This document shows, piece after piece, positions 6,555 to 56,844 of a stretch of 64,000 nt of DNA (its first letter is position 1; every line of letters starts with the position of its first letter). Position numbers and translations under genes: made by a program. This DNA comes from Hydrangea macrophylla. Its lineage: Eukaryota; Streptophyta; Magnoliopsida; Cornales; Hydrangeaceae. Below the pieces are notes generated by a model that ran no database searches, was not told where the DNA came from, and saw only the letters and a list, made by a program, of their open reading frames with translations. Location of the stretch: the NCBI GenBank assembly GCA_033977485.1, contig CM066994.1, forward strand, positions 86,056,871 through 86,120,870, given 5' to 3'.

Positions 6555-6667
6555 TATTTGTTTTGGATGGTTATGTACTTTTTTTTTATAGAAGTTGTTC
6601 CTCTATTTGAGTTCCTCTGCATATTGTCATTACTTGTTATCTGTTTTGGATTGTTATTTTCCCAGTG

Positions 6668-9413: not shown

Positions 9414-9466
9414 TCAATCCATCCTTCCTTTCAAGATCCTCTCTGTTACTTCAGTTGGTGTACTGC

Positions 9467-9520
<54 letters not shown>

Positions 9521-18839: not shown

Positions 18840-21800
18840 TCAGTTGAATGTCTTAATACCTTCTGTTTGGTCATTCTGATGAGGTGATTTTTTGTTCTCG
18901 CTAGACCAAAAACTTGAAGGGAGGAGTGCCTTTTGTGAAGGTAATTCCGCAATGAAAAGTAGAGTTTGGGCCCAACCAGCATATTTCCCATATTTGCTCA
19001 CAAATGCATCTGCCACACGACTGCTAACCTTAGGTGTCAGGCGTGTACCAGCAAGCTCGGGGATGAGATCTCTAGTTGCAATCTTCCTCAACCCCAGGAA
19101 CAAGAAAATTTTTATATCAGCCTTTAAAATTTATTGGATATTACATTCAGAGCAATAAAGATGCAACATTACAGAATAAACAAGAATCTATGCAAACACA
19201 ATGGTTCAACGTTGCAGTATTAGACACTGTCTCGGGAAGTTCCGAGACGATTCGCGTCAGGGCGTGATGTCAGACGATACCGAATGAGCGCAACATCATG
19301 TAAAATTGAGATTCAGAAGTCTAAAAAAAATTTAAAATTTTAAAAATAGAAGAACACTAAAATTAGTCCATCAAACAAACAAACTATACCATCAACCACG
19401 AAATAAAGTGTCTATTTCTTCAGTAAAGTCATTGCTGAACAATTTCATGACAGGGTTGCATGATGGTATTTTATGTTTGTAAAATAACCTAGATAGACAC
19501 GGTCTAATCAGTATCTTCCTACTTATCATAATATCACCATCTACATCCTGATACAAACGAGACAATTTTTTTTATGGCTGTCTTCGTGTAACAGGCCATA
19601 GACTTGTCTCAGTGGCCAATGATATGGAAACGACTCAGGCTAGACGTCTTGGTCACAGAAATACTTTTGAACCATGCAATTTCCTCTTGTCCAACCTCTT
19701 TGGACATATATTTCTATAATTACAAGTGCATCTCTGACAATTGTGATGCAGTAATTTGTAGTACTTTATATTTTAATAGTTGTGCTTAGCTTGTAATATT
19801 TCCTTTGGTTGTTATTTTGGTTTAGTCACAAGCATGTAAAGGTAGAATAGGTTAAATTGGGTATAAATAGTAGTCTAGAGCTAAGTGAGAAGTAGCTTTC
19901 GATAATATTGTATTTGGAATTGGTTTTATACCAAATTGAGCCCAAAGTTCTTGTTTTAGGGTTTTGGTCTTCCAAACCCTAGTTTGTTCTTAATCTCATC
20001 TCTTCAACTCTTGAATTGAGCATTCATATGCATTTGCATGCATCATTTTGGTATCAGAGCATTGAGTTGCACCGGGATTGAAGGAAAATTTGCTTAAATC
20101 TCAACCAAACAAGGCCTTAGAGGTCACAATGGCAATCAATATACTCCACCAACAAGTGCTGGGGAGTTGCAATTGAGAACCGACCTGAGTGCTTCACACA
20201 ATTTGACCCGATCAGACCTTGAACCAATTCGAACCCAGCAATTATCTTCGCAAAGTGAGTCGAACAAGCAGCAAGGATTGCGACGTCCATTCGATACTGT
20301 GTCTAAGGGAGACGAGCCAGAACTTAGCCGAATCTGAAGCAAACAGCACCAAATCATCTTCGCACCCAACCCAGGCCATCGCGACCCAAAACTGAGTCTC
20401 GGCTGGTGAGAACCCGAAGTGAAATCGAACCGTACACAGTTGCACAGCATGCGGTGGCTTCGAAACAGACCTTCCAGCCTTGAATCAGTTCGAACTTGGA
20501 CTGTGATTTGCAGAATCGCAAGCCGATTGCAACCGAAGGTGACGTTGCTGAAAATTGAACCAAACAGAGCCTTGAACCAATTTCCAAACCAGACGTGGAG
20601 TGCGACTGCAACTGTAGCAGCGATGGTGGCTTGCGAACCTGATTGGGATTCGCGAACTAGTTGAACCAATTTCTTTGGAGCTTGTGACCATTAAACCCTG
20701 GAATTGACCAACCAATTGGAGCTTGTTTGTTGAAATCTGACCAACCAAAGCCTTGATAGTCCGTCTTCGAACAAGTTGGACCCGCGCATGCATCTGTTTC
20801 GACCAATTGGCATCACAACTTTGGTGAGGGTTTGAATTCAAGCTCATGACCACCATCCAAGCACAGCGACTGTGCAACCAACTCGCGAACATCGAGAGAC
20901 AACCTGTTTGACTTCGCTGGTGGCTGGATTGACTTCCGGTGGTAATTTCAAATCTGCTATAGTACAATTTGGTGACTGAATGGAGATTTCAGCAAGGTAT
21001 ACCTGTTGTTTAGCAAGGAAGCATTGAGAGCACTATCGTGTCTCCCTCTCATTTTATTAAAGAGAAGAAATAAGATATAATTACAAGAGTACCCTTAATT
21101 AAGGGGAAAATGAAATACAACCAATACACAGAATAAAATAATAAACATCTCTCAAGCTGGGGCGAAAATATCTCTCACACCCAGCTTGCTAACAATGTAG
21201 TGAAAAGAACGACCCGGAAGACTTTTAGTCAGAATATCTGCTAATTGTTCTCCACATCTCACAAATGGTGTACAGATGCACCCACTATTCAACTTCTCTT
21301 CAATAAAATGCCTGTCAATTGGGTGGTAACCAGTGGTTGACCTTCTGTCGGTAATGGACTTAGCCCAATCTGCATCAGAATAGGCCTCAACTGAAGTGTG
21401 CCCATGTCTAGCAAAACATAATCCTTTTCTTGGTGTTGACTTCAAATATTTAATGATTCTAAATATAGCATTGAGATGAACTTGCTTCAGATCATTTAAA
21501 TTGGCTAACCACACTAACAGCAAATGCAATATCTGGTCTGGTGTGCGCCAAATTTAATTTTCCTACTAACCTTTGGTATCTTCACTTCTCAACTGGTTCT
21601 CCATTGGGATCATCTCCAAGTTTTAGATTCGAATCCATAGGCGTATCCACTGCTTTGCTTCCAAGCATACCTGTCTCCTTGAGCAGGTCTAGAACATACT
21701 TCCTCTGTGAAATAAATATGCCTTCCTTGGACCTTGCCACTGCAATCCCCAAGAAATATTTCAAATGTACCAAATCTTTAATTTCAAATTTCTTAGCAAG

Positions 21801-24800: not shown

Positions 24801-27800
24801 CATGCCAAGGATCATGCTCCGAACCGGGTCAAGCTCAGTATTAAGACCAGCTAGAGATTTAAATATCCTCACTCTCAATGTAAGTCTTGAAGATAGCAAC
24901 ATCAATTGGACACACTGGGTGATGGGTAGTTACATGATCAATGCGTTTAGGGTTCCCAATGCGGTGAAATACTATAAAGTGGAGTGATCTCTCTGTTTCT
25001 CTGCTTTAACTACTCTTCTTAACTCATAGATTTGCGCCACATTCCCTTTACAAGAATAAGTCTCAGCAAGGGTATCCCAGATATCCAGGCAGTCTCCATC
25101 CCAAAGAACCCATCAGCAATCTCTGGCACCATGGAATGGGTAAGCCAACTCATAACCAAAAAATTGTCAACTTCCCACATTGCATAAGTAGGATCTTCAA
25201 CGCTAGGAGCCTTGAGTGTGCCATTTTCATAACCAAATTTAGATCTGCGTTTGAGCCAAAACGTGGCTAATTGAGACCAGGATAAATAATTCTCACCATT
25301 CAGAAGCGCTGTGGTGATCTTGAACACAGGGTTGTCGGTAATGGGTATTCTCTCATTACCTACAGGAGAACTTGTAACTTCCGCAGTCTTTTGAGTCAAA
25401 TCGTCCTTCATCATATTAAGGAGGAACGGGCATGATCAACAATAACGAAATCAAGACACTCCTAGCATTCACATGGACCACTTTGGTGCTACCATCCAAT
25501 CTACGGACCGAAGAAGGGGTAAAACTTAAACAACGATCATAATAGCCCAATTGGGAGAGCAATCTGATCTAGGGTTTGAAAACTAAGAGAAAAGGGATGT
25601 ACAGATAGAAGAAATCAAGCTAGGATGTGCAGTGGTGTCTGGGTATGGTGTATAGGCCTCGACGAGATTGGGTAATTGAGTAAGGTGGTGAGGCGAGGCT
25701 GGTGGAGGTGTCTGGGAGGTGAGGCGAGGGGCTTAGGGTGTGTTGGGTTTGCAACGAGGGACCTGGGGTGTGCTAGAAGGTGCGACGATGACCTGAGAGC
25801 CTGCTAGGGTTTCGACAAAGGCCAGAGAGTGGAGGAGAGTGGCGGCGGGATGAGTTGTTGGTGGTGGTACATCGATTCCCTTCTTAGGGTGGCTTTGATA
25901 CCATGTTGTTTAGCAAGAAAGCATTGAGAGCACTATCGTGTCTCTCTCTCTCATTTTATAAAAGAGAAGAAATAAGATATAATTACAAGAGTACCCTTAA
26001 TCAAGGGAAAAAAGAAATAAAACCAATACACAGAATAAAATAATAAACATCTCTCAACAATACATATAATTTTGAGGTTGATTGGTTCACTTTTGGTTTG
26101 TGTTGTTTGTGATTGTTTTGGTATTGACTTGTGGTTAGAGATTCGACTTGATTTTTCCACAAATTTGGTGTCAATTTTCTTGTGATTTGCTTTGCTATGG
26201 CTCAAAGAGGAAGAGGTAGAATGGGTATAGCCGAACAGGGCAAGGAAATACCATGTATTTGTAGAAATAAATTAGGGCAAGATGAGGAGACAAATGATGT
26301 CTCCCATATTTTATTACATGTGGAGAAGAAGGAAGAATTACAATAGTATCCCTATGTCTGATACATAAGAGTAAGGGAAATAAAGTAAAAATAAAAAATA
26401 ATAAAACAAGTAAACTAACACTCCCCCTCAAGCTGGTACAAAAATATCTCTCATTCCCAGCTTGCTAAGAGCAAAATGAAATGGTCTACTTCCAACGCCC
26501 TTTGTAAGCATATCTGCAAGTTGATCCCCGGTCTTCACAAATGGAGTACAGATCACACCACTACTGACATTCTCCTTGATGAAGTGTCTGTCAATCTCCA
26601 CGTGGTTAGTTCAATCATGTTGCACTGGATTGTGGGCAATGTTGATTGCAGACTTGTTGTCACAATACAATCTCATAGAGTCACTAAAATCAAGACCTAA
26701 GTCTTTTAACAACAACTTAATCCACAGAAGCCCACATACACCTTGAGCCATGGCTCTGAACTCGGCCTGTGCACTAGACCTAGCCACTACATTCTGCTTT
26801 TTACTTCGCCACGTAACAAGATTACCCCCCACGAAGGTACAATAGCCCGAAGTGGACCTCCTGTTTGTCACAGAACCAGCCCAATCAGCATCTGTGTATG
26901 CTTCCACTCGAAGGTGGTCATGTCTAGTAAAAACTAAATCCTTTCCAGGAGCTGATTTCAAATACCTCAAAATCTTGTAGACGGCCTCCATATATCCACA
27001 GGGAGCGTGCATGAACTGACTAACAACACTCACAGCAAAGGCAATATCAGGTCGGGTATGAGAAAGATAAATGAGTTTTCCCACTAACCTCTGATATCTG
27101 CCTTTATCTACCTCTGCACCACCTGAATCATCACCAAGTTTCTGATTTGATTCAATCGGAGTGTCACACGCTCGACTTCCAAGCATTCCAGTCTCGTCCA
27201 ATAAGTCAAGTACGTATTTCCGCTGGGAAATGAAGATTCCATTCTTAGATCTAGCAACCTCAATTCCCAAAAAATATTTAAGAGTCCCCAAGTCTTTTAT
27301 TTCAAACTCCTTGGACAAATACTCTTTCAGCCTTTGCATTTCCTCCAGATCATCCCCAGTCAAGACAATGTCATCCACGTACACAATCAATGCAGTAGTC
27401 TTACCCCGTGATGAATGTTTAATGAACAAAGTGTGATCGGCTTGACTCTGTCTAAAACCATACCTGAGCATAGCTTGTGTGAACCTCTCGAACCATGCCC
27501 TAGGAGACTGTTTCAAGCCATACAATGATTTTCTGAGTCTACACACCCTGCCGTCTATCTTAGAATCCTCAAAGCCTGGAGGAACATCCATATACACCTC
27601 CTCATCTAGATCACCGTGAAGAAATGCATTCTTCACATCAAACTGGTGAAGCGGCCATCCAAAGTTAGCAGCTAGTGACAGAAGGACCCGAACAGAGTTC
27701 ATCTTTGCAACAGGAGCAAATGTCTCCTAATAATCAATTCCATAGGTCTGTGTGAAGCCCTTAGCAACTAGCCAAGCTTTGTACCTTTCAATGGAGCCAT

Positions 27801-30800
27801 CAGCCCTATGCTTCACAGTGTACACCCACTTGCCCACAGTTCTTTTGCCTTTAAGTAACCTCGTCAATTCCCAAGTGTCATTCTTATGAAGAGTTTTCAT
27901 CTCTTCAATCATAGCATGTTTCCACTTGGGATCCGCAAAAGTATCCTGGACATTATTAGGAACAAACACGGAAGCAATTTTGGAAAGAAAAGCTTTATAG
28001 GCGGGAGACAAGTGAGAATATGACACAAAATTTGAGATAGGATGTTGGGTACAAGCCCTAACACCCTTACGTACAGCAATAGGAGCATCAAGATCAGAAT
28101 CAAACTCCATAGGAACAGGTGTATAAGACTTACTAGGAATATCAGAATCAGAGTTACCTTGGTCCTCAACACTTGAAGGAGATGTCAGTGGAAGAGTAGA
28201 AGGAGCGAACTCTTTATTCTTGGACTTACTCCATGTGCCTCTAGAATAAACCATCCACTCCTTTTCTTTTAATGGAGTACAAGCGTCTTCTTTCTCCATA
28301 TCCTTCCCATCCTCATTTTCTCCCTCAATTTTTTCTTTTTCCTTTACTTTCTCAGTGGTAATATCCATAACTACTCCCCCTGGAGACAAAGGGACAGACA
28401 AAGGCACCTCTTCCTCATACCACTGCTCCCCCTGAAGAGGTGACTCAGAAGGAAGCGAGGACTGAAAGTACGATTGAGATTCATGGAATGTAACATCCAT
28501 GGAGACATACCATTTCCTAGGAGGAGGATGGTAATACTTATAACCTTTCTGGGTTGGAGAATAGCCCACAAAAACCCATTTAATCGCTCGGGGATCTAAC
28601 TTCCCACGAGTAGGGCAATGGTTGTGAACAAAGCACACGCAACCAAAAACACGCGGAGTTATAGGGAACAGAGGAGAAGTGTCGGACAGGACTTCAACGA
28701 GTGCTCTTTTGTTCAAAACTCGAGTTCGAAGACGATTAATAAGGTATGCCGCCGTTGAAACAGCATCACCCCAATAGGACTTCGGAGCATTAACAGAAAA
28801 CATTAACGATCTAGCAATATCAAGCAGATGATGATTCTTGCGCTCCGCCACACCATTTTGCTGGGGTGTATCGATGCAAGAAGTCTGATGAATAATCTCA
28901 TGGGAGCAAAAAAAACTCAGCAAGACCCGAATCAATGTACTCACCCCCTTGATCAGATCTTAAAATTTTTAATTGAGTTTCAAACTGACTGCCACCATTT
29001 TATGAAATGCTTTGAAAATGGAGAAAACTTCCCTTTTCTCTTTCATCATATAAACCCAAGTGGTACGAGAATAGTCATCAATAAATGTAACAAACCATCT
29101 ATGATTTTTCAAAGAATTAATACGAGAAGGACCCCAAACATCAGAATGACCTAAAGCAAACGGAACTGAATTTTTATTAAAACTAGGAGCAAAAGAAGCT
29201 CTATGATGTTTACCCAGTTCACAAGTTTCACAAAGGAGATCAGAAACATTTTTATTCAAGATTAATGAAGGAAATAAATGCTTTAGTAAATAAAAAGAAG
29301 GATGTCCTAAACCATGATGCCAGAGATGTATGTCTTTAGCTTTATTCTCAGAAAGCACTGTATGATGTACTAACGGCCCTCCAACATCCAGAATATAAAG
29401 ACCACTCTCCTCTCTACCACTGCCAATCATCCTCCTCGTGGTAAGGTCCTGAAAAACACAATGAGAAGGGAAAAATGTTACACTGCAGTGTAAATCCTGA
29501 GTGATACGTCTAATGGATAGCAAATTATGGGAGAAATTGGGAATATGTAGTACAGATGACAAAGACAAGGATGGAGTGGCATGGATAGTACCCTTCCCGG
29601 AAATAGAGGAAAAAGTACCATCAGCTACACAAACCTTATCTTTACCTGAACAAGGCTTATACACAGAGAAAATATCAGAACATTTAGACATATGATCGGA
29701 CGCACCAGAATCAATAATCCGGGGAGAAGAAGTATGAGACAAGTGTGCTCTTGCGGATGTGACTAAATTACCTGAATGAGCAAATGAAGAGGAGGCACCT
29801 ATAGATGCAGTAGAAGCAGACGTACGACGAGCCATCAAAGAACGAAGAGCTTCCTCCGCCTCTGAGGCAGTAAATAGTGCTGGGTCGGAAGTAGATGAGG
29901 TCTGCTCAACCGGAGTCGGTGCCATAGGATCTAAGGCTGTGGTATGATGAGCACGATAGTTACCTCCCTACGACTGTCCCCCAAGACCTGAACGACCCCC
30001 ACGACCTCCAGACTGTCCAGGTGGACGGCCGTGTAGTCTCCAACATGTGTCCCTGGTATGATAGGGCCGATTACAATAATCACAAAACTGCTTGGCTTTC
30101 TCAGATGAACCAGACTCATTAGAAGAAGTACGGCCTCGGGACTGTTTGGTCCCATCTCTCTGGGGAGCCGAAACGAGGGCAGATCTCTCGATAGAAGTGG
30201 GTGGAAGCATAGTAGAACGTCTACTCTCCTTGTTCTGTATATATGCAAAGGCCTACTCTCCTTGTTCTGTATATATGCAAAGGCCTCCTAGAGAGAAGAC
30301 AAAGGATCCATCCCGAGTACACGGCTGCAGACGAGATCATACTCAGCATTAAGTCCCTCCAAAAACTTAAAGATCATCTCTTCAGCAACAAGTTTATTAT
30401 AGGCAACGGAGTCGGTTGGACAAACCGGCTAGTAGTCCAAGAGGTGATCAAGTCGTTTCCAACTAGTGGTAAGAGATGTGAAATATTGGAGAACACTCAT
30501 CTCTCCCTGTTCTGAGCGACCAATCGTCCTCCTTTAACTCAAATATCTGTGCAGAATTGCCCTTTCGGGCATAGGTGTTGGCCATGGTCTCCCAAATGTC
30601 TTGTGCTGTCGCCATGTCCAAGAAACAAAGCCACGTCATGACCGTAGAGTTTTCCATCTCCCACTTGCCATACGTAGCATCCTCAGTGCTAGGTGCCTTG
30701 ATTCGTCCGTTGATATACACCATCTTTCCTATGCCCTTAAGAGATATGATCACAGACCCAGACCAAGCTAGGTAGTTTTGTCCATTGAAGAGAGAAGTAG

Positions 30801-32387
30801 TAAGCTTGATGTTCGGGCTATCAGAAGGAGCAACGACAATTCTCACTCCTAGGCTGTTGTGTATTCAAAGTGGATTTATCTCCATCCGACATCTTGACTC
30901 GACACGTAAAAAAAAAATACCCGCAAAAATCACAAAAAAGGGAATAGGAATCGGTACCAACGGTGATGGAGAGCTCAAGTATCTATCAAAGCTCCATGCA
31001 AAGACTTCGGATCAGCCAAAGCTGATCAAGGGTCCATATAAGGACCAAAACAACACAAAAATATTAACCATCGATCAAAACGAGATAGTCGTAATGTATC
31101 AGCAAAGAAGAAGAGAAGCTAGGAATGGCAGCGAGAAGGTTGGTTAGCCTATGATAGAATTAGGCCTGCGTGAGGCTGTCGGCTAGGGAAAGAGGTACTT
31201 TATGGCTGTCGGCTGGGTGAAGAAGGCTTGTATCAATGTAGGCTAAACCAGAAGAGTCGTGGATGGTGTCGCCGAGAGGGTGTAAGGAGGCTAGGAGGCT
31301 TGCGGAGGGGCTGGGCTAGGTCAGGGACTTGCGGCGCAGGTAAGGGTTAGGGTAAGGAGTGTCGCAATGTTGGTGGTGGTGGTTTAAGGTGGCCGATGGT
31401 GGTGGAGATGGTGGGTAGTGGTGGAGAACCCTCATAGGGTAGCTCTGATACCATGTAGAAATAAATTAGGGCATGAGGAGACAAATGATGTCTACCATAT
31501 TTTATTATATGTGGAGAAGAAGGAAGAATTACAACAGTATCCCTATGTCTAATACATAAGAGTAAGGGAAATAAAGTAAAAATAAAAAATAATAAAACAA
31601 GTAAACTAACAGTATTTTGAGGATAGAGCTGAATTTGATTTAGCACATCCTTTGGGACTCAAGAGTACCCAACACCATGAATTCGAGGAATTAAGAGGGC
31701 AAATTGCTACCTTAACACACTTAAGGTAAAGCGTTTGCAACCTTCTTATGCTAGAATTCAAATTCCGAAATTCCACGGTAATGAATCGGAGTTTGAGGAT
31801 TGGTTGAAGGAAGTTGAAGGTCTCTTCAATTTCTATGATGTAATTGAAGACAAGAAAGTTAAGTTAGTGGAGAAGTGTTTGAAGGGAAATGTTGCAAATT
31901 GGTCGCAACACATCAAATTTGTTCAGAAAAGAAGGGGAAAACCGAAAATTGTGGAGTGGTACACAAAGAGGAAGAAATTAGTAGGCAAGTTTTTATCCAT
32001 GGATTACATCCCAACCAAATGTCGGGAGTTGAGACACCTTTTTGATAAGTTGGACTTCGGTGATAAATTGAAGTTTGACGATTACTTGGACGAGGAACCA
32101 AGGTTTTATGAGTATTTGGATGAGGAATAGATAATCGATGATTGTTATAAAAGTGGGTTTGATGAACACCTAACCGGAGACGATGACACGGAATTGCGTG
32201 AGGAACCGATATTTGATTATTATTATTAATGGTGGGATTGGTCTCAGGTCTAGAGATGGTTGTTTTGGGGGTTAATGGTGGGATTGGGGTTTGAATTTAG
32301 ACTCCATTATTGTTGCTACTGCTTCCATTGCTGTTTGGGGAGTTTATGGAAGATGATTTCCATTGATGGGTCTCTCACCTTTCTGCC

Positions 32388-32432
<45 letters not shown>

Positions 32433-44400: not shown

Positions 44401-47400
44401 CCAGCCTATTGACCTCTCTGACTCAAATGTATGCTCATGAGTGTAATGATTCTCGTATCTTTGAACTTTATCGGGATGTTGCAGAGGCTTCTCAGGCTAC
44501 ATTAGGTCTTTCAGTTGCTGATTATTTTGGCTACCTTTAGTCTCGTTAGGAGGAACTGGCTCAGTATGAGCCTCTTAGTGAATTTCCGCCCGAAGCAGCT
44601 ACTATTGCTCTCTGACGTATCAATCGTCATCACACCTACCAGTTCTTGATGGATCTAAAACCTGAGTTCGAATCTCTCCGGACTCAGATTTAAACCCATC
44701 CCCTATGCCCTCTTTATTTGAGGCTTTTGCTACTATTGATGGAGATGAGAGACGTCGTCACTTGCTTCAACCTCCGACTTTACTTGAGCCAACTCAAGTG
44801 CCTGATCAGATGGCTCTTGCTGCCCCGTCGGGCCCATTCACTCGTCCTCTTGGATATAGTAACCGCCCTTTCTACACTTATTGTGGTAATCTTGGTCACG
44901 TCAAGGATTGCTGCTTCAAACTCCATCCTGAATTTCGTGAGAAAGGTGCCCGAAATAAAGGAAAGGGTCCATCCCGCACTGCTGCTATGGTTGAGACTAC
45001 TCCTACTCTGGATCTTCTTTAACTCCCGACTCATATGGGCCACCTTCAATCTCAACTCGGGGCATTACTTCAGCAAGGTTCTCATTCTGGCACCACTCCC
45101 ACTGCTACTTCGGCTTCAGGTACTCCTTCTACTGCACTCCATGTTGGGTCTAGCAACCCCTCGTGGATTCTGGATTCTGGTGCCAGTGATCATATGACTG
45201 GTAAGTTGCCCTTGTTTTCATCGTCTTTGGTTCCCATCTCCCAATCTGTGCGCATTGCGGACGGGTCCACACTATATATGTCAAAATTAAAGGCAATGTT
45301 TGCCTCTCCTAATATCTCTTTATCTTCTGTTCTTCATGTCCCTAGTTTTCCTTATAATCTTCTTTCAATTAGTCGTCTTGCAAAATCTCTTAATTGTGAA
45401 ATTGTGTTCTTACCAGATTGTTGTCCTTTGCAGGACCGGATTTCGAAGAAGATTTTTGGCAAGGGATATGAGCGAGATAGCCTTTACTATTTTGGTGATC
45501 CTCCTAGCGGGAATTTAAGTTTGTCGTCTTCGGGTCTTCAGGCGTCTGTTTTGCCTGAATCTTCTAAGTCTTGTAGTTTTTCTTTAGAGTCAATAAAATT
45601 GTGGCACGCCCGCTTGGGCCATACAAACTTTTATTATCTTTGTCAACTTTTTCCATTATTAAATAAAGCCTAAAAGAAATTTAAATTCAATTGTGTGGTG
45701 TGTGAGTTATGTAAGCATACTCGTTCTCATTATATACCTCGCACGAATCGTGCACCATCTGCTTTTGATATTATCCATACTGATGTGTGGAGCCCTTCCC
45801 CAATTACTGTTATTTCTGGTTACCGTTATTATGTTACGTTCATTGATGATTACACTAGGTGTACATGGGTTTATTTGCTTAAAAAAAAATCATAAGTTTT
45901 CTCCTTGTTTTCTAACTTCTTACAAATGGTTAAGACCCAATTTAGTGCAGTTGTTTGTAATCTACGTTTTGATAATGGTCGTGAATACATTACTAATCTC
46001 CAGCAACTCACTTGTCCCTACACTCCAGAACAGAATGGTGCGGCGGAACGAAAAAACCGCTCCATCATGTCTATTGTTAGGTGTCTTTTGTGCGGAATGA
46101 ATGTACACAAATACTTTTGGCATCTAACCGTTCTTACTGCCACTTTTCTTCTTAACCAGACTCCAAGTCGTGTTTTACAAGGAAAGGCACCTTTGCAACT
46201 TCTTCACCCCAACAAAACCCTCTTTCCTATCCTACCTCGGGTCTTTGGTTGTACATGCTTTGTCCAAGATCGCAGTCCAACTCGAACAAAATTAGATAAC
46301 AAGGCTGTCCGCTGCATCTTCTTAGGTTATTCACCTATGTCAAAAGGTTACAGGTGTTATGATCCTACCACTCGTCATATGTATCATTCTTTGGATGTCA
46401 CTTTTTTGGAAGATACTCCGTTTTTTGCAAGTCCTCGGTCTGTTTCACATCCTCCTTCTACCGAAGTCTCCGAGGATTCAAACTCTCCTCCGCGTCCTAT
46501 TCCTCTGTTTGAGCAACCTCCGGAGACTTCTTCCAACCTTCCTCCGGTCATCACTACTACTCCTACTCAGGTGTACTTTCGTCGGCCTCCTGCTCAGACT
46601 CCACTTCCAATATCTTCACCGGAATCTGGTAATGTTTCTCCATCTTCACCTTCTGTTTCCTCTAGATATCCCTCTAGACTTTGTCATCCTCCTAATCGTT
46701 ATGGTTTTTCTGTTAGTACTAATCACCCCATTGATAGTATGTTTCTTATCAGGGACTTTCAGATTCCTAAAGCTCTTTTCTTATTCAGGTTGACTCCACA
46801 TCCATCCCTCGGTCTGTCTCTGAAACCCTCCAGGATCCACTGTGGGTGGCTGCCATGACCTTGGAAATGGAGGCCCTTCAACGTAATCAGACTTGGGAAC
46901 TTGTGCCTCTCCCCCGAGGTGAGAAAACTGTTGGGTGTAAGTGGGTCTTCACTATTAAGTATCAGGCTAATGGTACTATCGAGCGATATAACGCCCGTCT
47001 AGTGGCCAAGGGCTTTAAACAAATCCCGGGAAAGGATTTTAGTGCTACCTTTGCTCCTGTAGCCAAATTGACATATGTTCGGCTTATAATCTCTTTGGCT
47101 GCATTTCTCAACTGGCCCTTGCATTAACTGGATGTTAAAGATGCCTTTGGGGATTTGGATGAGACTATTTATATAGATCCTCCTCCGGGTTTTCGGGCTG
47201 AGGGGGAGTATTCAGGGAAGGTACGTCGTCTTCAAAAATCTTTATACGGACTTAAGCAATCTCCCCGAGCTTGGTTCAACCGCTTTAGAGAGGTTATTTT
47301 ATCTTTGGGCTTCACTCGATGCCACTTTGATCACACTTGTTTCACCCATCAGCGACCTGATGATCGGTCAGTTATTATTCTGGTATATGTTGATGATATC

Positions 47401-50400
47401 ATTATTACATGGGATGATGCTCCAGGCATTACCAAAGTCAAGAAGGCTCTTAGTCAATCTTTTGATGTTCAGGACTTGGGGCCTTTCGGTACTTTCGCGG
47501 GATAGAAGTTGCTCGTTCTCGTCAAGGGATATCACTGTCTCAACGAAAATATACTCTGGATCTTCTGCAAGATACAGGTATGATGGGATGTCGTCCTGCC
47601 TCCACTCCTATGGATCCCAATCATTAGCTGTCTAATGAGTCTGGGGAACTTCTTCCTGATGCTTCAGTATATCAACGCCTTGTTGGCTATCTTATTTACT
47701 TGAACAACACTCGACCCGACATTACATTTACAGTCAGTGTTGTGAGTCAATTTATGCATGCTCCACGATCATCTCATCTTGATGCTGTTCATCAAATACT
47801 CTGGTATCTCAAGACTTGTCCGGGTCTTGGAATATTTTATTCTGCAAACACACAGTCTGGGGTGCTCTGCTTCACTGATGCTGATTATGCTGGGTCTAAG
47901 AGTGATCGTCGGTCCACATCCGGATTCTGCACTTTCTATGGGAATCACCTTCTCTCATGGAAAAGCAAGAAACAAGTTGTAGTTTCTCGTTCTTCCACTA
48001 AGGCAGAATATTGGGCAATGGCACAGGGAACATGTGAGCTTCTATGGGTACATTCTATTCTGAAAGAGTTGGGTTATCCGGTTAATAGCTCATCTACGTT
48101 GTTCTGTGACAACAAGTCTGCCCTTATGCTTGCTTCTGACTCGGTTCTCCATGAGCGTACTAAGCATATTGAAGTGGATGTTCATTTCATTAGAGAGAGA
48201 GAGAGTTATGGAATCATTGTCCCAGAGTTTGTGCCCTCTTCCAGTCAAGCTGCTGACAAGGATCAAAATTTCGTTTCGGTGTAGTGTTTCGGTGTTCCCG
48301 GAAACGGAAACATGTGGAAACACCGGAAAAAATTGGAAACACAAAGAAACTTGTGGAAACATAACTTTAAACTAAACTGTATACACATATAAAGCTTATA
48401 ATTGATTAATTGAACCGTTAAGAGGTCTATACATGTAGTTATATCAATAATATATAGTTCAAATTGAAAATACATGATAATTTAGGCGTCAATCTACTGT
48501 CAAGCAGTTCATAGTATACAAAAAACATCATTCATAGAAAAGAAAAGTTACATATAAGCACATAAGAAGCTAATAAGATATCTCCAAAATACAAATAGTT
48601 GTTCATCCAACAATTTCACATCCAACCAATATCTCGTTGCCGTCTTTTTTTTTAATTGGTTGTGAAATGTCATCTTTATTTCTTTCTGCTACACAAAATA
48701 CATAATACATAATATTTAATTTAATTTTTTTAATTTATAAGAATATTTATAAATTGGAATTAGTATACCATTCATAAAAAAGTATGACTAATTTTTTATA
48801 TATTTATTTTGGGCTGAACAAAAATGCATTCATTTTAAAATTAATTTTTATATATTAATTTCGGGCTGAACAAAAATGCAATCATTTTAAAATTAATTTT
48901 GATCCTTGAATAGGACTAATAATATAAGTAATAATTACTAATAATATAACTTACAACTAATTTTTATATTTCTAAGAATATTTGCTAAATAACAAACTTA
49001 TATTATAATTCTTACATAACTTTATAACAACTAATTAAATTTATTATAACTAATTTTTATAATATAAGTAATAAATTACAAGAAATACAAGTTATAAACT
49101 TATATACTATAACTAATAATTAGTAAAGTATTATTTTGTGATATAGTATTAAATATAGATATTGATATATACCTTATTCTGATTTAGGGCTCAACTCGAT
49201 GAAAGGATTAGGCTCCAGCGGCTCTCTCCTCCAGAGGCGTAAGAAGAAGCAAAGAAGAAGAAGAAGATATCAACGAAGAAGAAGAAGAAGAAACCAGAAG
49301 AAGATGAAGATCGCAGAAGATAACAGCGAAGAAGAAGAAGAAGAAGAAAAAAAGAAAGAAGAGACCTGATAAAATTCTCGACCAAGTAAGTATTTGTACA
49401 CAGATCTTTCCCCCAAATTGGTCTTCTTCAATTATTTCCCCCAGAATTTCTCTTCTTCAATTATTTCCCCCACAATTTCTCCTATTTCATCATTTCTCTA
49501 CCTCACAGAGTCACAGTCAGTCATCACTGTTTCGTTCGAAACACTTGGAAACTTACAAATCTTGTCGAATCTCTGGAATTTCAAGATTCCCATGATGATT
49601 CGTGTCGGTGGGCCATGAAACCGAAAAGTTTCGGTCGTTTCGACCAAAAAGAAACGAAATTTAGTTCCTTGGCTGCTGATATGTTCACTAAGTCTGTTGG
49701 TCCCTCTCTCCTGAAGTCGTCTCTGATCAAGCTAGGTCTCATTGATATATTTGCTCCATCTCCAGCTTGAGGGGGAGTGTTGGAATATATATTTATTATA
49801 GTCAAACTTATTCACGGACTGATTAGGAATAGATTGATTGTAACTTATTATAGTTGTCTTTTTCCTTTTCTTTTATTTCCTTTTCTTTCTTTTATTTCCC
49901 TTTTCTGTGTCTCCTAGCTTGTATATATACATACACATTGTGAATAAATAAAATAACAATTATTCTTCCATCTTTCTTCTTTGTCCATGCATTAGAAAAT
50001 GTTGCGCAGGATGGTCATTGTGGTTTTAGAGCTTGCGCCGAACTGTTGGATATGAGTAAAAAGGATGGATGGAAGGACATTAGGAATGCTATGTTGCAAG
50101 AATTATTGAACTATACACTTATCAATTGGGTGCTGAAAAAAATTACATGGAATTGGAGGAAAGGCTAAATTTTTTTAAGGACTATGGATGTAAAACAAAG
50201 TATTGGATGCACCTGCCGGATATGGGACCATTATTTGCCACCACCTTCAATTGTGTGTTTTGTGTTCTTTCACCCTTACAGTCATGCACATATTTACCTT
50301 TGAGGAATGGACCAATAAGTGACTTTCAAATTGTCCCTATTGTTTTGTTTGATGAGGTTCACTTCATGGGTCTTTCTAAAACAAGATGCACTGATTCCAA

Positions 50401-53400
50401 ATGTTATGCCAGGGTGGGACGAAATTCGACATGGAGATGCAACAAGATGGGAACAATTGGTAAAACCCAAGATTGAAGACTGGAAAGCTCGTATTGGGTG
50501 TCCATAAGGTACATTTTTTTGTCCTCTCATAGAATGCATATGATGTCATTTGTCTTCCCTTGTAAATTTTAATATTAATTTATTCTTGTTGTTTTGTTTC
50601 CTAGTGCCATGTATCAGATCTATCTTATACTCTTCATAGTTGAGAGAAATGTTGAGAAAAGCAAATGGTGATGAGAAGGATCTGAATCTTTGCAAGCATG
50701 AAACGATCGCCACAATATTATTTGTTTTAGCTCTCTATAATTTATTTATTTTTATTTTATATTTTTATTCTATGTTCTAGTCAGTCCTGACTTTTAAGTT
50801 AATTCAAGTTATTAGAATACAATAACATTCAGTCTTCGTGCAGGTTCCAAGAGCTGGTGGTGTATTTTTGAATATCATACTATTGTTCAAGTTCTTTAGT
50901 GACGAATAATTGTCACTGAAAGTAAAAAAAAAAAATTGTCACAAAAAGTGTTTGAGGGACTAAAATGCCACACTTATGAAACTACAAGGACTAGAATGAC
51001 ACTTTCTTAACTACAGGGACCAAATTGACATATAGGGCAAACTAAGAGGGTGTAAAATACAGTCTAAGCCTATAATATATAGTAAAATAAGTGAGGTGCC
51101 TTTACTAATTAAAGTAAAAAGGTAAAAACTGATTTTTTTTACTTAAAACTAGGTGCCCTAATTAAAAATTGAATGTGCCTTTATCGCCAACCACTAGGAT
51201 AATGTGAATGTTCTTCTTCAAGTCACCAAGTCATATTGGTGACATTTATCAAATATCACAGTTACCATCAACAATAAAACTCTAAAAGCTCACCTTCCAC
51301 ACATGAGTATCAATTGGAATCGAATGATGTTGATCTAGGGAGAAGAGAGCAATGCATGCTGCCACCTTGGGGCCCACACCAGGTAGAGTACAAAGAGCAT
51401 CAACAACAACCGGAAGATCTAATTCCCGAAGAGAAACGAGCCACTCGATCCCTCCAAAGGGTTTTGATTGTAAAGCATCGACAGTGCGAACTATGTATTT
51501 GGCCCTGCCATTTTGTCAAGATGCGATCAAAATCTAGCGCACCGAAATTGAACCTGAATCTATACAGTTTAAAGTATCCAGTAGAAAGTGGAAAAGAATT
51601 ACAAAGCCGGCTTGAACTAAAAAATAAAGCTAATAGTTTGACCTCTCTCTCGCAATCAACCTTTCATAAAAATAGATCTTTATTTACAGTGTGAGGGGGA
51701 AGAATTCAGTTGATATGGGGTTGTCGACACCCTGACAATGGTAACTGTGCTATGAAAGCAAAGAAAAACTTGCAACATTGGAATGTGTTATGGTTCGTTT
51801 GGATTGACATTTGCTGAAAGCATTCTCACCAATTATAAGTACATTGTCATCTTCATTTTCAACTTATTTAGAAGACGCATTCTAATACAGTCTTTGCTTT
51901 TTCAAAAAAGCAAGTCTTACTTACTTGCTTCAACTTTTAAGTACTTGCTTCTGCTTAACCTTTACAACAAAGAACTCTCACTCTATCATGTTGCCAACTT
52001 CATCTTACCCTTCTTTCATCTTTTTTTTTTCTCTCTCTCTCTCTATATATCCAAAGTACATAAGAAATGATACATGTGCTGCGGGGAAAAAAAGTTACTC
52101 AATTACCAAACACAACATTAGTTAGGTTGGGTAGTGTATACTTGCTAGTTGCCCCTAAGCCATCCAAATGCTACGTTTGGTATGATGAATGAAGGAAAGG
52201 GGGGAGGGGGAGAAAATCCCTGGTTCAGTTGTTTGGTAGAGTGGAAGATAGGAGGGAAGAGGCATCCTGCAGAGCACCATTTCTCATCTGTCAAAAATGA
52301 ACGGGTTGGAAGAAGTAAGAGACTTCTTCACTTTTTTGACTGTTTTTTGTCCTAAGATTACTATCTTTTTGTTATGGGAGGGAAAATACATAATATTCCG
52401 CAGTTTCCTTCGTCTTTTCTTTCTTATATCAAACAAATTGACAAGAGACCCCCTTCGTTACCCTAGGGTACCTCTTTCCTCCCTTCTTCATTTCCTTCCA
52501 CTATTTCGTCCCTCCTACCAAACATATTATAAATGTTAAGCCAGTGTAGATGCACAGAAATGATGTTGTATATATACAATACCATGTTCCGAAAGAAAAG
52601 AAGGGATATATCATGGTCATAAACTTACATGGTGGTATAAAAAAATAAAATAAACCAGTAACTAGGAGTCTCATAAGTACACCACATACAGCGAACGTCT
52701 CTGAATAAAGAGCAACCTACTCACCCAGAAATGGGTAATAACTACTTGCATAATTCACAGTTATGGAAACCACCTCTCTGTAGTTGTCAATGGGCAGCAA
52801 GCTATGCAGAAAAGATGAAGATTTCCAGAAAAGAAGGCAGTAAATTAGAGACGACACACAGTCTGGATTCTCTGGAAAGAGGCAAGACTTTTGAGAGAAG
52901 TTTGGAGATAACAAAACATTGAAGCAAAAACTGCAGATAAGTTCTCTGATTCTGGTATCACGATTAGGCTTCCATGGATTTAGTGAAGGAAAGGAAACGC
53001 AAACACGAAGCAAAAAACTTTTCTTTATTTGGTTAACAAGGAAAATATGAGAAAAACAGGAATAACACAAAAATGGGGTGAGAAAAAAAAAATAAGATTT
53101 TGAATTTTGTGAATCTCACTCTCCTTTGTCTTTTTCTTGAGTTCCTAATGTTTTAAAAGTTTTTAATTTCTAACGATACTTAAACATGGAGAAAAGCACT
53201 AAGAGAAAACACTAGGGTCTTGTGAATCACTTTCCTTAAAGTTCTCTATTTCCATTTACTTTTTTCTCTCAAACTCACTACGGAACTCTCAAAACTATCA
53301 AGCCATGAAAAAACACTAGTTCTTAATTTATGTCCACAAGGAAGCACAGGTCGGCAATCAAGCTAAAACTGCTACAGTTTGTTGTTCATGGAGAGTTACT

Positions 53401-54756
53401 CCCTCCGTCCCATTTTATGTGTCCCTCTTGGGGAATCCAACTATTTAAGGGGACAAAAAGAATCTACACATACTTTCCACAATTGCCCATAATCATTGCA
53501 CTTTCTTTTTTGTTTTGTTTTGGTGTTGATTGCAAGGAAGGGTAGTTTGGGAAACTAAGTAAAATTTGCATACTAATTTAGGAAAGTGGACAACAATTTC
53601 GGGAGATCCCAAAAAGGAAAGGGTGATACATAAAATGGGACGGAGGGAGGACTAATCTATAGTATGAATAGATAATAAAGAGTGAATTTAACTCTTTCTT
53701 GGAAAAACAACCTGGTATTTCTGCAACAAGAGTTTCCTACTAACGAAAAAATTCATTTTGAGTCTTTCACTAATGATCTAGTTTTTGACTCGAGCCATGG
53801 TCTCGTCTAGAACAAAATAAACTATAAACATATCGAGTGTTCTATCTCTTTTCGCAAACCAGGCTTGAAGCGTTTGAGACATTTAAAGCAAAATTATTGA
53901 ATTCTGTACTCACAGTTTGGAGTTTCTCACTCCTTCCGATTTGCTTCAGTAATTTAAAAAAACAAAACTCTAATCTTATGAATTCTCGTCGGGATAGCTG
54001 GATTTTAAAAAATAAAGCAAAGAAAATCAACAACTACAGATCAATAGCTATAAGGTGAGTCTTCTTCTACACTTGAAATACATACAACAGCTTCTCCAAA
54101 GCATTCACAACCTAAAGAATTTTTTATTTAAAGCATTCCAAGCCCAAAACAGGACCACACATGCTTCAAAGTGAATAAAATTCCAGTTGATGCAAATTAC
54201 CCAATGCTTTCCCTTGCTAGTCTCGCCTGTTATGTGAGCTAACGGATAATCATCCAAGTAACTTCATTTCCACTAGGGGAGTTCAAAAAAACCACCAAAC
54301 CGAACCGGCTGGCCGAAGCCGACAAAATTTGGTGGTTGTGGTCGCCTGGTCGGTTTATATCTGCCACAGTCGCTGTTCGGTGTTGAATTTTAGAGAATTT
54401 TAGTTTTCAGTTCGAAGCCGGCTTTTGTTCATTGAAAATCGAAAATAGCCAAACTGACCGAATATAAACACAGATAAAGTATTTGTATTTAATGTTCGAC
54501 TCTTACATGTAAATTGTAATGAAGTTCTGATGACCCTACTTTTTGACAGCACGGTAAATCACTTTCCAAGATTGTCTTTTACATACATCTCATTATTTTA
54601 TTCTCTCTCTTTCAGAAGACTCACAAAGGCAATACTTTCATCATGACCGTAGCTACAAACACTACCTGACAGGCTGACAGACTAGTGACTACTTCTTGGA
54701 GTATGCTGATCAACTTTCTATCTATTAATCTCTTCCTTTTCCTCCTTTTTTTTATT

Positions 54757-54809
<53 letters not shown>

Positions 54810-56844
54810 ACACAAGCCTATTCTCTCTCTCCTCCGCAACTACACACATACACAGCTTCTCTCTCTTTTTTTGCTAAAATACACAGCTTTTCTCAATAAC
54901 TGACTCATTTTCTCTCTCTCCCTCAAACCATGAAGGTTTTCATGGGAAAACTTGAACTCACAGGCTCCGTTCTAATGATCTCCGGCATGGTCTTCGGTCT
55001 CCGATCACAATCTCCGGTCATTATCTCAGTTTGTACTTTTTTCTTTACCCCCTCATCCCTTTTTCTCTTTCCTTGAATGTCACATTCATCACCCGCTAAA
55101 ACAATAATTGTAAGTACCCTGAAAAATGTATAACTTCCCAAGTATAAATAGTAAGCTTCCATAACTTTCCATTTAGATCTTACACTCCCCTTTTTACTTT
55201 GACAAAAAATCTCTCAAAAGGTATTGTGATTTTGTAAAACCGATGCTACTGACCGAAACCGATTGAATCTGCAATGGTCGGTTTCACTATGTTCCGATGT
55301 CACTACAGTCGGAATCGGTTTTGACTTCTGTAAAACCGAATTGATCAGTTCCGTGGTAACATTGACGAAAAAGCCGACCGAAGCCTACCAAGAACAGGCC
55401 TAATTTCCACCGTGAGAAAATTCGCGCGGTGCTAGAGCATTTTGTGCCACTCAAAACAACAATGTCTGGCAAGAAATGAAGAAAATGTTACAGTAATCAA
55501 CCGTCCACATTCTCATTATGTCATACGAACGGACTAACCTCATTCCTTTAGGCCTGTTTATGCGCGATTCAATGCAACAAAATCTAGCAGTTTCACTATA
55601 AAGACGATGATTGTGAATGGGTCCATTTAAAAATTATGCTCATTCAAAATAATGAGTAAAATCGTGTATTTTTCAATTTGAAAAAAAATTTGTGAGATAC
55701 ACATACAAAAGAAATATGATGAACTCTCCTACTAATCGAAATAAAATCATTCATGATGATGGATTTTACTATAAGATACGGTATGAATTATTCAATTAAT
55801 TCATAAGGCTATCCAAACTCAAGTGACGACCTCACATGCGATTCAGCACTCATATGACATGACTACCTAGCTTGAAAAGAACGAATTGGGAAAAAAAAAA
55901 TTGGTAGCATATTAAGTGGAAAAACAAATTCTCTATGTTTGTCCCTTGTTTTCAAATAAGATATCACTGTACAAACAATTATAAATCTGCAACATTAACT
56001 GTAGAAACATACACTTACCAATAGGAAAAATACAATAACTAAAGAAGAATTCAATAGAAAATAACCTGTAACCGAAACCCGCCTTTCTAAGTTCTTCCTC
56101 AGAAACTTGTGACAACCGATCCAAAGATGGGAATTCATAAAAATCAATATCTTCAACAGTCCCCAAACAATTCCCTAATGATGATAGATAATCAACCATT
56201 CCGGTAATTCTCCGAATATTATTGTTCGACGAACAAATGAACTGAAGGAGGCACTCGAGTGGGTCTTGCCTGAGCACTCTGGCACCACCCAAATGCCTCG
56301 CCAATTCAGCAAACCTCGAATCAGAATGTGAAAATGTCTTCCACAAATCACTCAAACAAACACCCACATTGAGAAAATCCAATAAGGCCAATCTAGCAGT
56401 AGTCTCACATGTGGGTTTATGAAAAGAATAAGCAACATCACCATTATCAAGCTGTTTGAGAGAAACTAAATGAGACCCAACAACACCTGAGTACTGATTA
56501 GGGCCTGTTTGTTTCCACCTGAACGTTTGGCCTGTGGGGAATGTGAGGGGCAAAAAGAGCTCGGATTTGCCAAGATTGAGGGGTACCCATTTGAGGGTTT
56601 GGTGATCTGGTGAGATTGGAGTAGTGGGTGGTGAAGATTTGATGGGTTTTGTGATCTGGGAGAGAATATTTTTGGATTTTTTGGAGGAGTATGAGATGGG
56701 TTTTAGGGTTTTTTTGGAATGGAGGGTTCTGTGGATGGTTTGTGGAGTTGGAGGAGTTGAAGGAGTGGTTGGAATGTTGGTAGATAGTGATGGAGTTGTG
56801 GGTCTCTGTCTCTTCATGGTTGATAGTGTTCGCAGAGATTGCAT
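18840..56844 (-). CDS. OGG1: 8-oxoguanine DNA glycosylase/AP lyase (OGG1), gene spanning 38 kb
   Basis: Base-excision-repair enzyme that removes 8-oxoguanine opposite C and nicks the abasic site; nuclear (possibly also organellar). Exon 1: 56066-56817 from the family-like MKR start (an in-frame ATG at 56844 adds nine residues). Exon 2: 51294-51504. Exon 3: 18840-19082. All junctions are GT..AG (TACAG before GTTATT; GGCAG before exon 2; AAG before GTGAGC; GGAAG before exon 3). Coding total 1,206 nt, 401 residues plus TGA, no interruption. The N-terminal OGG domain has [13 protein letters not shown] and [20 protein letters not shown]; HhH-GPD is in exon 2 ([12 protein letters not shown] with the catalytic Lys at residue 297, IPIDTHVW with Asp 316); exon 3 holds the C-terminal helices ([20 protein letters not shown]). 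Exons 2 and 3 are 32.2 kb apart. Introns are packed with transposons, yet every exon is intact, so the gene is judged functional, though splicing across intron 2 is inferred. Confidence 0.9.
20049..20060 (+). promoter_or_regulatory. Primer-binding site, initiator-Met tRNA
   Basis: TGGTATCAGAGC, complementary to the 3' end of plant initiator Met tRNA, follows a likely LTR end CATCA by three bases. Confidence 0.75.
21152..24300 (-). pseudogene. Copia A pol (protease, integrase, RT, RNase H), broken
   Basis: In order: protease active site [11 protein letters not shown] at about 24290-24262, gag-pre-integrase [12 protein letters not shown] (about 23870), integrase core HTDVWSPSP and [14 protein letters not shown] (23765-23433) and [13 protein letters not shown] (23436-23140), RT start [21 protein letters not shown] (22495-22154), and RT with [32 protein letters not shown] and [12 protein letters not shown] (22166-21582). 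RNase H (21529-21152) has [11 protein letters not shown] but jumps from RRSTTGY straight to DRHFIEE, so a central block including catalytic residues has been deleted. At least five frame breaks. Confidence 0.85.
24322..25414 (-). pseudogene. Copia A gag, broken
   Basis: The N-terminal gag segment (25414-25019; [33 protein letters not shown]) goes out of frame near 25090. A second segment (24735-24322) carries the CCHC zinc knuckle [14 protein letters not shown] with all four ligands, followed by a Gly/Arg-rich stretch. The intervening part is scrambled by frameshift. Gag would form the cytoplasmic particle. Confidence 0.8.
26197..26259 (+). pseudogene. 5' end of gypsy-like gag, cut by copia B
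   Basis: Starts ATGGCTCAAAGAGGAAGAGG ([19 protein letters not shown]) and runs into copia B at 26260. It belongs with 31612-32229. The frames of the two parts do not join cleanly, so other damage exists. Confidence 0.5.
26436..29925 (-). pseudogene. Copia B pol, near-complete with few breaks
   Basis: 29925-28969: protease [12 protein letters not shown], gag-pre-integrase [15 protein letters not shown], zinc-binding [10 protein letters not shown], integrase [10 protein letters not shown] and [15 protein letters not shown]. 28944-27727: integrase [15 protein letters not shown] and [16 protein letters not shown], a GKG-rich linker and the RT start [17 protein letters not shown], ending at TAG in place of a Gln codon after GIDY. 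27702-26611: RT with [45 protein letters not shown], then RNase [35 protein letters not shown]. The tail ([14 protein letters not shown]) follows another break near 26610. Only three or four lesions. Confidence 0.88.
29968..30846 (-). pseudogene. Copia B gag, broken
   Basis: The N-terminal part (30846-30463) has [20 protein letters not shown] and STVMTWL; its frame is lost near 30500. The C-terminal part (30248-29968) has the zinc knuckle [14 protein letters not shown] and a Gly-rich RGG-like tail. A short duplication near 30243-30285 (AGGCCTACTCTCCTTGTTCT repeat) adds to the damage. Confidence 0.8.
31612..32229 (+). pseudogene. Gypsy-like gag remnant
   Basis: The frame from 31735 reads [20 protein letters not shown] (start of a retrotransposon gag domain), [20 protein letters not shown] and a long charged C-terminal part, ending at a stop near 32128. 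A related acidic frame continues to 32229. The upstream part (31620-31732) has [13 protein letters not shown] and [15 protein letters not shown] and ends in a stop. Gag of this type builds the particle; no zinc knuckle or pol remains. Confidence 0.65.
32389..32468. repeat. (GA)n(GAA)n microsatellite
   Basis: About 40 bp of AG repeats directly followed by about 40 bp of AAG/GAA repeats. Confidence 0.95.
32685..32815 (+). repeat. Left terminal inverted repeat of the MULE
   Basis: Pairs with 51062-51192 on the other strand. Small differences and a few indels (for example AAGTTAAAATC against AAGTAAAAAAAATC). Confidence 0.88.
33066..33108. repeat. (TTTGG)n microsatellite
   Basis: About seven pentamer units, GGTTTGGTTTGG. 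Confidence 0.9.
33259..33480. mobile_element. MITE-like foldback in the MULE 5' region
   Basis: Left arm TTTTGCTCATCCTAAAATTG...TCTCCCATTGGCCAATGCAG is repeated inverted on the right; the right arm has an extra GGTGAGCAAAG and a second GGGCTCCACTGCATTGG block. TSD not resolved. Confidence 0.6.
34694..35683 (+). pseudogene. Copia C gag, broken
   Basis: Starts [18 protein letters not shown]. Motifs [44 protein letters not shown], and a damaged zinc knuckle [14 protein letters not shown] in which the second Cys is Ser. One TAG replaces a Gln codon near 34931, and a TAA follows ADSG at about 35681. The tail is rich in Gly and Arg. Confidence 0.85.
35684..40991 (+). pseudogene. Copia C pol, broken and interrupted
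   Basis: Protease [13 protein letters not shown] (about 35890), gag-pre-integrase [13 protein letters not shown], integrase HSDV-stop-GPS and [15 protein letters not shown], then a frameshift near 36740 before [30 protein letters not shown] and [15 protein letters not shown]. The linker (37130-37620) is cut by the solo LTR in the RT start (MNEEMK). RT resumes at 39510 ([36 protein letters not shown], a TGA in place of Trp in [18 protein letters not shown]). RNase H (40283-40759) has [12 protein letters not shown]; the tail with [14 protein letters not shown] ends at 40991. Several stops fit single G-to-A or C-to-T changes. Confidence 0.88.
37627..39509. mobile_element. 1,883-bp solo LTR in copia C pol
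   Basis: Begins TGTCACGACCCAAATCCAC and ends GTTGGGATATTACA, flanked by an exact 5-bp direct repeat TGAAA (37622-37626 and 39510-39514). Taking it out restores the copia RT frame across the point. It has no primer site, coding region or second LTR, so it reads as a solo LTR left by LTR-LTR recombination. The TGTCACGACCC start is common among plant gypsy LTRs, but the lineage is not proven. It includes three copies of AGGCCACCTACT at 39050-39085. Confidence 0.9.
41287..41469. mobile_element. 183-bp foldback MITE inside the MULE
   Basis: Ends CCAGGCTCTAGAGTGAACA and, inverted, TGTTCACTCTAGAGCCTGG. A second inverted pair is TTTTTTTTGCCTGAAAAAAC and its complement. It lies just after TTTACAG, which may be the acceptor of the first MULE intron. 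TSD unclear in the surrounding AT repeats. Confidence 0.8.
44070..45022 (+). pseudogene. Copia D gag, broken
   Basis: Starts [19 protein letters not shown]. Motifs [20 protein letters not shown] and [15 protein letters not shown]. Stops TAG at about 44538 and 44547, TGA near 44614 and TAA near 44692 break the middle. The zinc knuckle segment reads [20 protein letters not shown]; the first Cys ligand is Tyr (TGC-to-TAC type change). Confidence 0.82.
45035..49767 (+). pseudogene. Copia D pol, broken and interrupted
   Basis: 45035-45673: protease [14 protein letters not shown] and [14 protein letters not shown]. 45695-45895: integrase [11 protein letters not shown] and [15 protein letters not shown]. 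45905-46858: [36 protein letters not shown], a Pro/Ser-rich linker. 46846-47127: RT start [17 protein letters not shown], with TAA before LDVKDAF. 47155-47505: [25 protein letters not shown]. 47700-48256: RNase [48 protein letters not shown]. The last codons (49680-49767, [16 protein letters not shown]) lie past the hAT-like element. About six lesions. Confidence 0.86.
48257..49671. mobile_element. 1,415-bp non-autonomous hAT-like element
   Basis: Ends CAAGGATCAAAATTTCGTTT and, read inverted, CAAGGAACTAAATTTCGTTT. Exact 8-bp TSD GCTGCTGA at 48249-48256 and 49672-49679; 8 bp is the hAT length. Subterminal GGAAACA/TTTCGG motifs are dense at both ends. A (GAA)n-rich block (49240-49355) and very A/T-rich DNA fill the middle; no transposase is seen. 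Confidence 0.88.
51062..51192 (-). repeat. Right terminal inverted repeat of the MULE
   Basis: Inverted partner of 32685-32815; ends in GCCTTTATCGCCAACC. Confidence 0.88.
51202..51293 (-). other. Remaining original intron 2 sequence at the OGG1 donor
   Basis: Just 92 bp between the MULE TSD and the exon 2 donor. It should be continuous with 32230-32675 before the MULE arrived. Confidence 0.7.
53399..53649. mobile_element. Stowaway MITE, copy 2
   Basis: Starts CTCCCTCCGTCCCATTTTAT after TA and ends AAAATGGGACGGAGGGAG; the right TA is altered. Shares internal sequence with 6303-6554, so both belong to one family. In OGG1 intron 1. Confidence 0.9.
54759..54807. repeat. (CT)24 microsatellite
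   Basis: Uninterrupted TC run inside OGG1 intron 1. Confidence 0.95.

Follow-up and report, generated by a model that had tools for sequence, protein, structure and literature searches.

Three minus-strand exons spread over a coding span of 38 kb in Hydrangea macrophylla very probably form the plant's ordinary OGG1 gene, which lies in tandem with a PBC1-like gene and is most likely still working with an intron 2 swollen by serial nested insertion of transposons. The stretch analysed (the window) comprises 64,000 bp, C13:86056871-86120870 of a 2.22-Gb assembly in 19 contigs, and all feature positions below are numbered within it. Events of this kind are well known in large plant genomes, and the locus is a new example with an attractive nested architecture.

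Structure, product and copy number of OGG1

All coding segments lie on the minus strand. The coding part of exon 1 (56066..56844, 779 nt) ends at GTTACAG/GTTATT, where the slash marks the exon edge, and is followed by intron 1 (51505..56065, 4,561 bp), exon 2 (51294..51504, 211 nt), intron 2 (19083..51293, 32,211 bp) and exon 3 (18840..19082, 243 nt including the stop codon). Joined in this order, segments 56844-56066, 51504-51294 and 19082-18840 make one continuous reading frame; both donors are GT and both acceptors AG. The product predicted from the first ATG at 56844 has 410 amino acids. This product scores above the Pfam cut-offs for both OGG_N (85.3 bits, cut-off 23) and HhH-GPD (33.2 bits, cut-off 26.2). 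Human OGG1 structures match it with 218 bits over residues 85-380, and the OGG1 proteins of Davidia and Nyssa share 76% and 75% identity with it, respectively, over 97-99% of its length. An earlier note on this DNA had proposed that the three segments are one OGG1, and these results bear that out. Judged by its sequence, the gene is the plant's ordinary OGG1 and is predicted to encode an 8-oxoguanine glycosylase/AP lyase. The score against NCBIfam TIGR00588 was below the cut-off (233 bits against 397.85); all five other plant OGG1 proteins tested also fell below it, at 228-240 bits, which indicates that the cut-off is unsuited to plant members.

Exon 2 bears the catalytic residues, Lys306 and Asp325 when numbered from the first ATG. 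K306 lies in G-P-K-V-A and D325 in D-x-H-V-W, the motifs that mark the catalytic site, and we take their human counterparts to be K249 and D268. Both residues are invariant across 44 aligned sequences, that is the query and 43 homologues picked for spread out of the 120 listed of 2,340. A second ATG (MKRQRP) occurs nine residues after the first. The earlier note had named the catalytic pair Lys297 and Asp316; the residues are indeed present, and that numbering holds only from the second ATG. The same note had called the order and phases of the segments exact. The phase of exon 3 is right, yet its acceptor is ambiguous, because AGs are found at both −6 and −2 (window 19083-19090), and the one four bases farther upstream, if used, would shift the frame. 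At the other end of this exon a donor-like GAAG/GTATTAAG is located at about 18859, just ahead of the stop codon (18840). An additional 3′ exon beyond this GT is possible; when the read-through past it was inspected, the C-terminal tails of the homologues were too variable to settle the point.

A search of the whole 2.22-Gb assembly with the OGG_N profile returned a single place, the OGG1 locus, and a search with the whole protein gave strong matches to the three exons only, plus three weak N-terminal matches. Neither query found a second intact OGG1 in the assembly. At C12:47,723,266-47,723,400 there is a stretch with 79% DNA identity to exon 1 over 129 bp and a broken frame, which we read as the decayed exon-1 relic of a second copy. 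A further part of this relic may survive 2.3 kb downstream as a short CLIQFLC-like match, at E-values of only 0.02-0.24. Weak N-terminal matches on C15 and C13 contain stops, have 34-38% identity and look like chance; they were discarded. The previous statement that there is no second copy of any segment therefore stands for intact genes and fails for the C12 relic.

Directly downstream of OGG1 and on the same strand is a PBC1-like proteasome beta subunit gene (9417..15010, minus strand); it has six matches to coding exons, of which the last has an E-value of 0.009. The bait for this gene was a Quillaja gene model, P0012, in which OGG1 and a proteasome beta subunit are fused, so the OGG1-PBC1 order is seemingly common to Quillaja. 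Arabidopsis presumably has the same order (AT1G21710/AT1G21720). Other parts of the window hold two tandem arrays. One (611-2005) has about 42 copies of a 33-bp unit with 89% matches, and a reading frame through it gave a single Pfam match, under the cut-off; the other (2440-3121) has about 12 copies of a 49-bp unit. On the plus strand, 5728-6009 holds part of a DDE_Tnp_4 transposase and 6611-7114 part of a Myb/SANT-like domain, a pairing known from PIF/Harbinger-type elements. Upstream of OGG1, a Copia gag piece (Retrotran_gag_2) is present at 63237-63899 on the plus strand.

Growth of intron 2 by nested insertion

About 90% of intron 2 consists of identified transposon insertions, each large one flanked by its own target-site duplication, exact or one base off. 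The earlier description of a transposon-filled 32-kb intron is thus right in substance and incomplete in content: the filling is not copia alone, since two of the four copia elements are nested in a Mutator-like element (MULE) that had gone unreported. This MULE (32685..51192, strand unassigned) measures 18,508 bp with its nested inserts and 4,779 bp net of copias C and D. It has terminal inverted repeats of about 120 bp that are 89% alike (left, 32685..32802, plus strand; right, 51072..51192, minus strand), transposase pieces at 41697..42906 on the plus strand (PF10551 and a weak Transposase_mut match), and the target-site duplication ATTAGGATA/ACTAGGATA (8 of 9). Long terminal inverted repeats, a duplication of about 9 bp, here with one mismatch in nine, and a MULE transposase are the features that define Mutator-like elements. 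An internal 182-bp hairpin-like repeat (41286-41467) with 56-nt arms that are 93% complementary is perhaps a small MITE.

The right end of the MULE is separated from the exon 2 donor by 92 bp and the target-site duplication. We searched the genome with the right terminal repeat and the adjacent intron as query; 40 of 1,462 first-look candidates were scored and listed, one being the window and the rest 39 further places. At 35 of these 39 the match ended at query bases 114-122, around the predicted edge at 121, and this recurrence fixes the right edge of the MULE independently. The remaining four matches extended to 125, 125, 131 and 148. A pair of the MULE's inverted repeats in opposite orientation, 3.35 kb apart, was seen at C1:79,354,553-79,357,905 and is likely another member of the family.

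Copias A and B stand in series near exon 3, on the minus strand and hence sense to OGG1, both with both long terminal repeats (LTRs). Copia A (21004..26059) has the target-site duplication ATACC/ATACA (4 of 5) and an LTR divergence (K2P) of 0.039; copia B (26260..31611) has GTATT/GTATT, a divergence of 0.026 and interrupted reading frames. Copias C (33953..41149; AGACC/AGACC; 0.041) and D (43459..49980; TTGTC/TTGTC; 0.046) lie within the MULE on the plus strand, antisense to OGG1. The edges of D were placed by hand from its primer-binding site and duplication, as the automatic TG..CA scan gave other edges, and its terminus is CT, not CA. All four elements have the paired LTRs, 5-bp duplications, TGGTATC primer-binding site and copia-type reverse transcriptase and gag of Ty1-copia elements; reverse transcriptase, integrase and gag domains of copia type turned up in the scan, which covered 46 of 106 frames.

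The MULE is older than copias C and D, because they sit within it. Illustrative substitution rates range from 1.3e-8 down to 4e-9 per site and year. At these rates the LTR divergences of 0.026-0.046, calculated from only 150-203 aligned sites each, correspond to copia insertion ages of about 1-6 million years. Removal of all identified insertions leaves approximately 3,276 bp of older intron. The position of the intron is probably old and conserved, to judge from protein models: four of the 120 homologues listed of 2,340 (P0017 Cornus, P0083 Xanthoceras, P0092 Corchorus and P0097 Dillenia) break exactly at HVWQ/IATR, as would be expected for a misjudged intron edge.

These data suggest a course of events in which intron 2 would initially have measured about 3.3 kb or less and then grown to 32 kb through serial insertion. 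The MULE would have inserted some 0.1 kb away from the exon 2 donor and later received copias C and D, and copias A and B would have inserted closer to exon 3. Splice sites and exons would have been left untouched throughout, and the intron would be spliced out whole, a single long GT-AG intron like those of many genes in large plant genomes; for this reason we consider that the gene most likely still works. Transcription, splicing and enzymatic activity of OGG1, like silencing of the elements, are what we infer from its sequence.

Comparison with other large plant introns

For a measure of intron size in the same assembly, we collected 97 gaps between adjacent exons of myosin and kinesin genes. 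Their median was 135 bp; 14 were at least 1 kb, five at least 5 kb, one at least 10 kb and none at least 30 kb, the largest being a gap of 21.9 kb in a kinesin gene on C4. For myosin the sample drew on 93 of 93 matches, with 65 of the 121 first-look candidates scored; for kinesin it drew on 150 listed of 164 matches, with 122 of the 370 candidates scored. Some of the genes look like near-duplicate pairs, so that part of the gaps are not independent of one another. We excluded 28 and 37 gaps in which the profile ends failed to meet, among them one of 20.8 kb with missed exons. The 32-kb intron is in the extreme tail in this genome, though other very large introns occur.

Grape and rice offer precedents for big introns packed with transposons, for an excess of Copia and for genes divided in annotation. 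In Vitis vinifera, 2,697 introns of 3-100 kb are described in 2,563 genes, more than 80% repetitive and with Copia about 6.5 times as abundant as Gypsy (PMC3058033). OGG1 intron 2 resembles these in being large and transposon-filled, with the difference that more than half of it is one MULE carrying nested copias and that the grape introns have EST support whereas this one is known as genomic sequence. Grape genes were wrongly split in annotation at such introns: 188 EST clusters had matches to more than one annotated gene, and for 99 of the clusters these genes were consecutive (PMC3058033). The earlier warning that automatic annotation would probably break OGG1 into pieces is sound in light of this precedent. 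Introns larger than 5 kb in Arabidopsis, classed there as extremely large, are likewise reported to be made mainly by transposable elements, some with RT-PCR confirmation (PMC5575664), but OGG1 intron 2 exceeds them in length about threefold or more. Numerous introns of more than 20 kb are reported for gymnosperms (PMC9364684), and the IBM1 orthologue of Theobroma cacao is described with a methylated intron of 27.2 kb (PMC11265718), so that a very long intron in a flowering-plant gene is a trait that OGG1 shares with IBM1. More than 10% of rice genes are stated to have intronic heterochromatin (PMC7145194). Among the matches listed in literature searches on OGG1 introns or transposons in plants, OGG1 in Hydrangea, and AtOGG1 structure, the titles and abstract openings did not mention the arrangement described here.

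Integrity of the gene and the question of read-through

The conservation of the three exons was compared with that of the 43 homologues. Where at least 90% of these agree, exon 1 departs at two of 96 columns, exon 2 at three of 44 and exon 3 at none of 38. Raising the threshold to at least 95% leaves two of 87 departures in exon 1 and none of 30 in exon 3, both inside the range of the 43 others, and three of 42 (7.1%) in exon 2, against a maximum of 4.9% in the others. The exon 2 departures are G266R, A321S and V324I, the last adjoining the catalytic Asp; as substitutions of G to R, A to S and V to I they appear mild. The earlier conclusion that the gene stays intact agrees with the open, in-frame exons and with the retention of all 38 conserved columns in exon 3. 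The insertions are young: since the oldest of them, neutral evolution would have brought no more than about 5-6 changes to exon 3, and intact exons are therefore no proof of function after the expansion. No homologue above 77% identity was present among the 120 listed of 2,340, from which it follows that the species' own transcript or gene model is absent from the listed homologues.

These limits give some room to an improbable reading in which OGG1 is in early decay, most of its transcripts end in intron 2 or take the frame-shifting acceptor, and an FPG/MMH-type glycosylase mainly repairs 8-oxoguanine. AATAAA motifs occur on the gene strand along intron 2, and together with the competing AG at −6 they could lead to truncated messages. 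The excess of departures in exon 2 and the low LTR divergences would fit such a decay, and a slow loss of constraint is conceivable, given that V324I adjoins the catalytic Asp. Loss of OGG1 might also be tolerated: the genome has a Fapy-glycosylase family gene (one match, C5:81,345,176), and in Arabidopsis MMH-1 and OGG1 are reported to do most 8-oxoguanine repair jointly (PMC10573277). Decay is nevertheless hard to reconcile with three exons that are all open and in frame, with the unbroken conservation of exon 3 and the two departures in 96 columns of exon 1, and with the mildness of the exon 2 changes. It is still harder to credit that the gene is an artefact of assembly joining unrelated pieces. 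Repeats are the usual source of misjoins, and nothing more specific speaks for one here, whereas the window is free of N, each large insertion is bounded by a separate target-site duplication, a mark that misjoining would not leave, and OGG1 is followed by PBC1, its fusion partner in the Quillaja model. We thus favor an ordinary OGG1 that still works with an enlarged intron.

How a working OGG1 copes with this intron is a separate matter. IBM2, EDM2 and AIPP1 form a complex (PMC11265718). The genes that require it have long transposon sequence inside an intron, CHG methylation or H3K9me2 over that intron, and a drop in downstream-exon transcript in ibm2/edm2 mutants; OGG1 has the first of these, and its transcription is presumed. 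Intron 2 might then be heterochromatic and full-length OGG1 might need the general IBM2/ASI1-EDM2-AIPP1 read-through, whose loss would bring early polyadenylation within the intron. We regard this as possible and rather less likely than simple constitutive splicing, with which it competes; it does not compete with the OGG1 gene structure. Long methylated intronic transposons were most often tied to loss of downstream transcript in Arabidopsis mutants (PMC4417168), loss of OsIBM2 in rice is reported to cause early polyadenylation within heterochromatic introns (PMC7145194), and OGG1 intron 2 has sense copias A and B with both LTRs as well as gene-strand AATAAA motifs. Reported responses are limited, however, to a minority of the genes that have introns of this type. 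In osibm2, 93 of 454 changed genes bear a heterochromatic intron, which is an enrichment and yet few against the 6,086 heterochromatic introns counted (PMC7145194), and of 705 Arabidopsis genes with introns larger than 1 kb, 109 have non-CG methylation, with IBM1 and PPD7 as notable named cases (PMC11265718). Nor did a sequence proxy for heterochromatin, consisting of CpG/CWG depletion and LTR transition contexts, give an intron-specific signal, with CpG observed/expected ratios of 0.44-0.62 in pieces of intron 2 and 0.37-0.60 in the exons; we dropped this proxy as evidence either way. The genes regulated by OsIBM2 likewise have long transposon-bearing introns, vary in function and are called common, and they come with methylation and mutant data (PMC7145194), whereas OGG1, viewed as sequence, gives no sign of dependence. 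Intron methylation is similarly reported to regulate IBM1 expression in Arabidopsis (PMC11265718), a level of evidence beyond the sequence by which OGG1 is known. The earlier note had singled out OGG1 as a natural candidate for this control, which would tie a repair enzyme to transposon silencing; such special candidacy is not supported, because introns of this type are common and only some of the genes respond (PMC7145194, PMC11265718).

A more far-reaching idea is that OGG1 dosage is gated by the chromatin of intron 2. Weakened silencing would allow copias A and B to end transcripts early, full-length OGG1 and oxidative repair would decrease, and OGG1 would act as a downstream sensor of silencing. 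We think this quite unlikely. If OGG1 output did require the intron to be silenced, oxidative DNA repair and transposon control would be linked. With or without such coupling, the locus is a clean, datable example of one plant intron that has grown about tenfold by nested insertion with its exons and splice sites surviving, and it cautions that genes with introns of this kind may be split or missed by gene finders.
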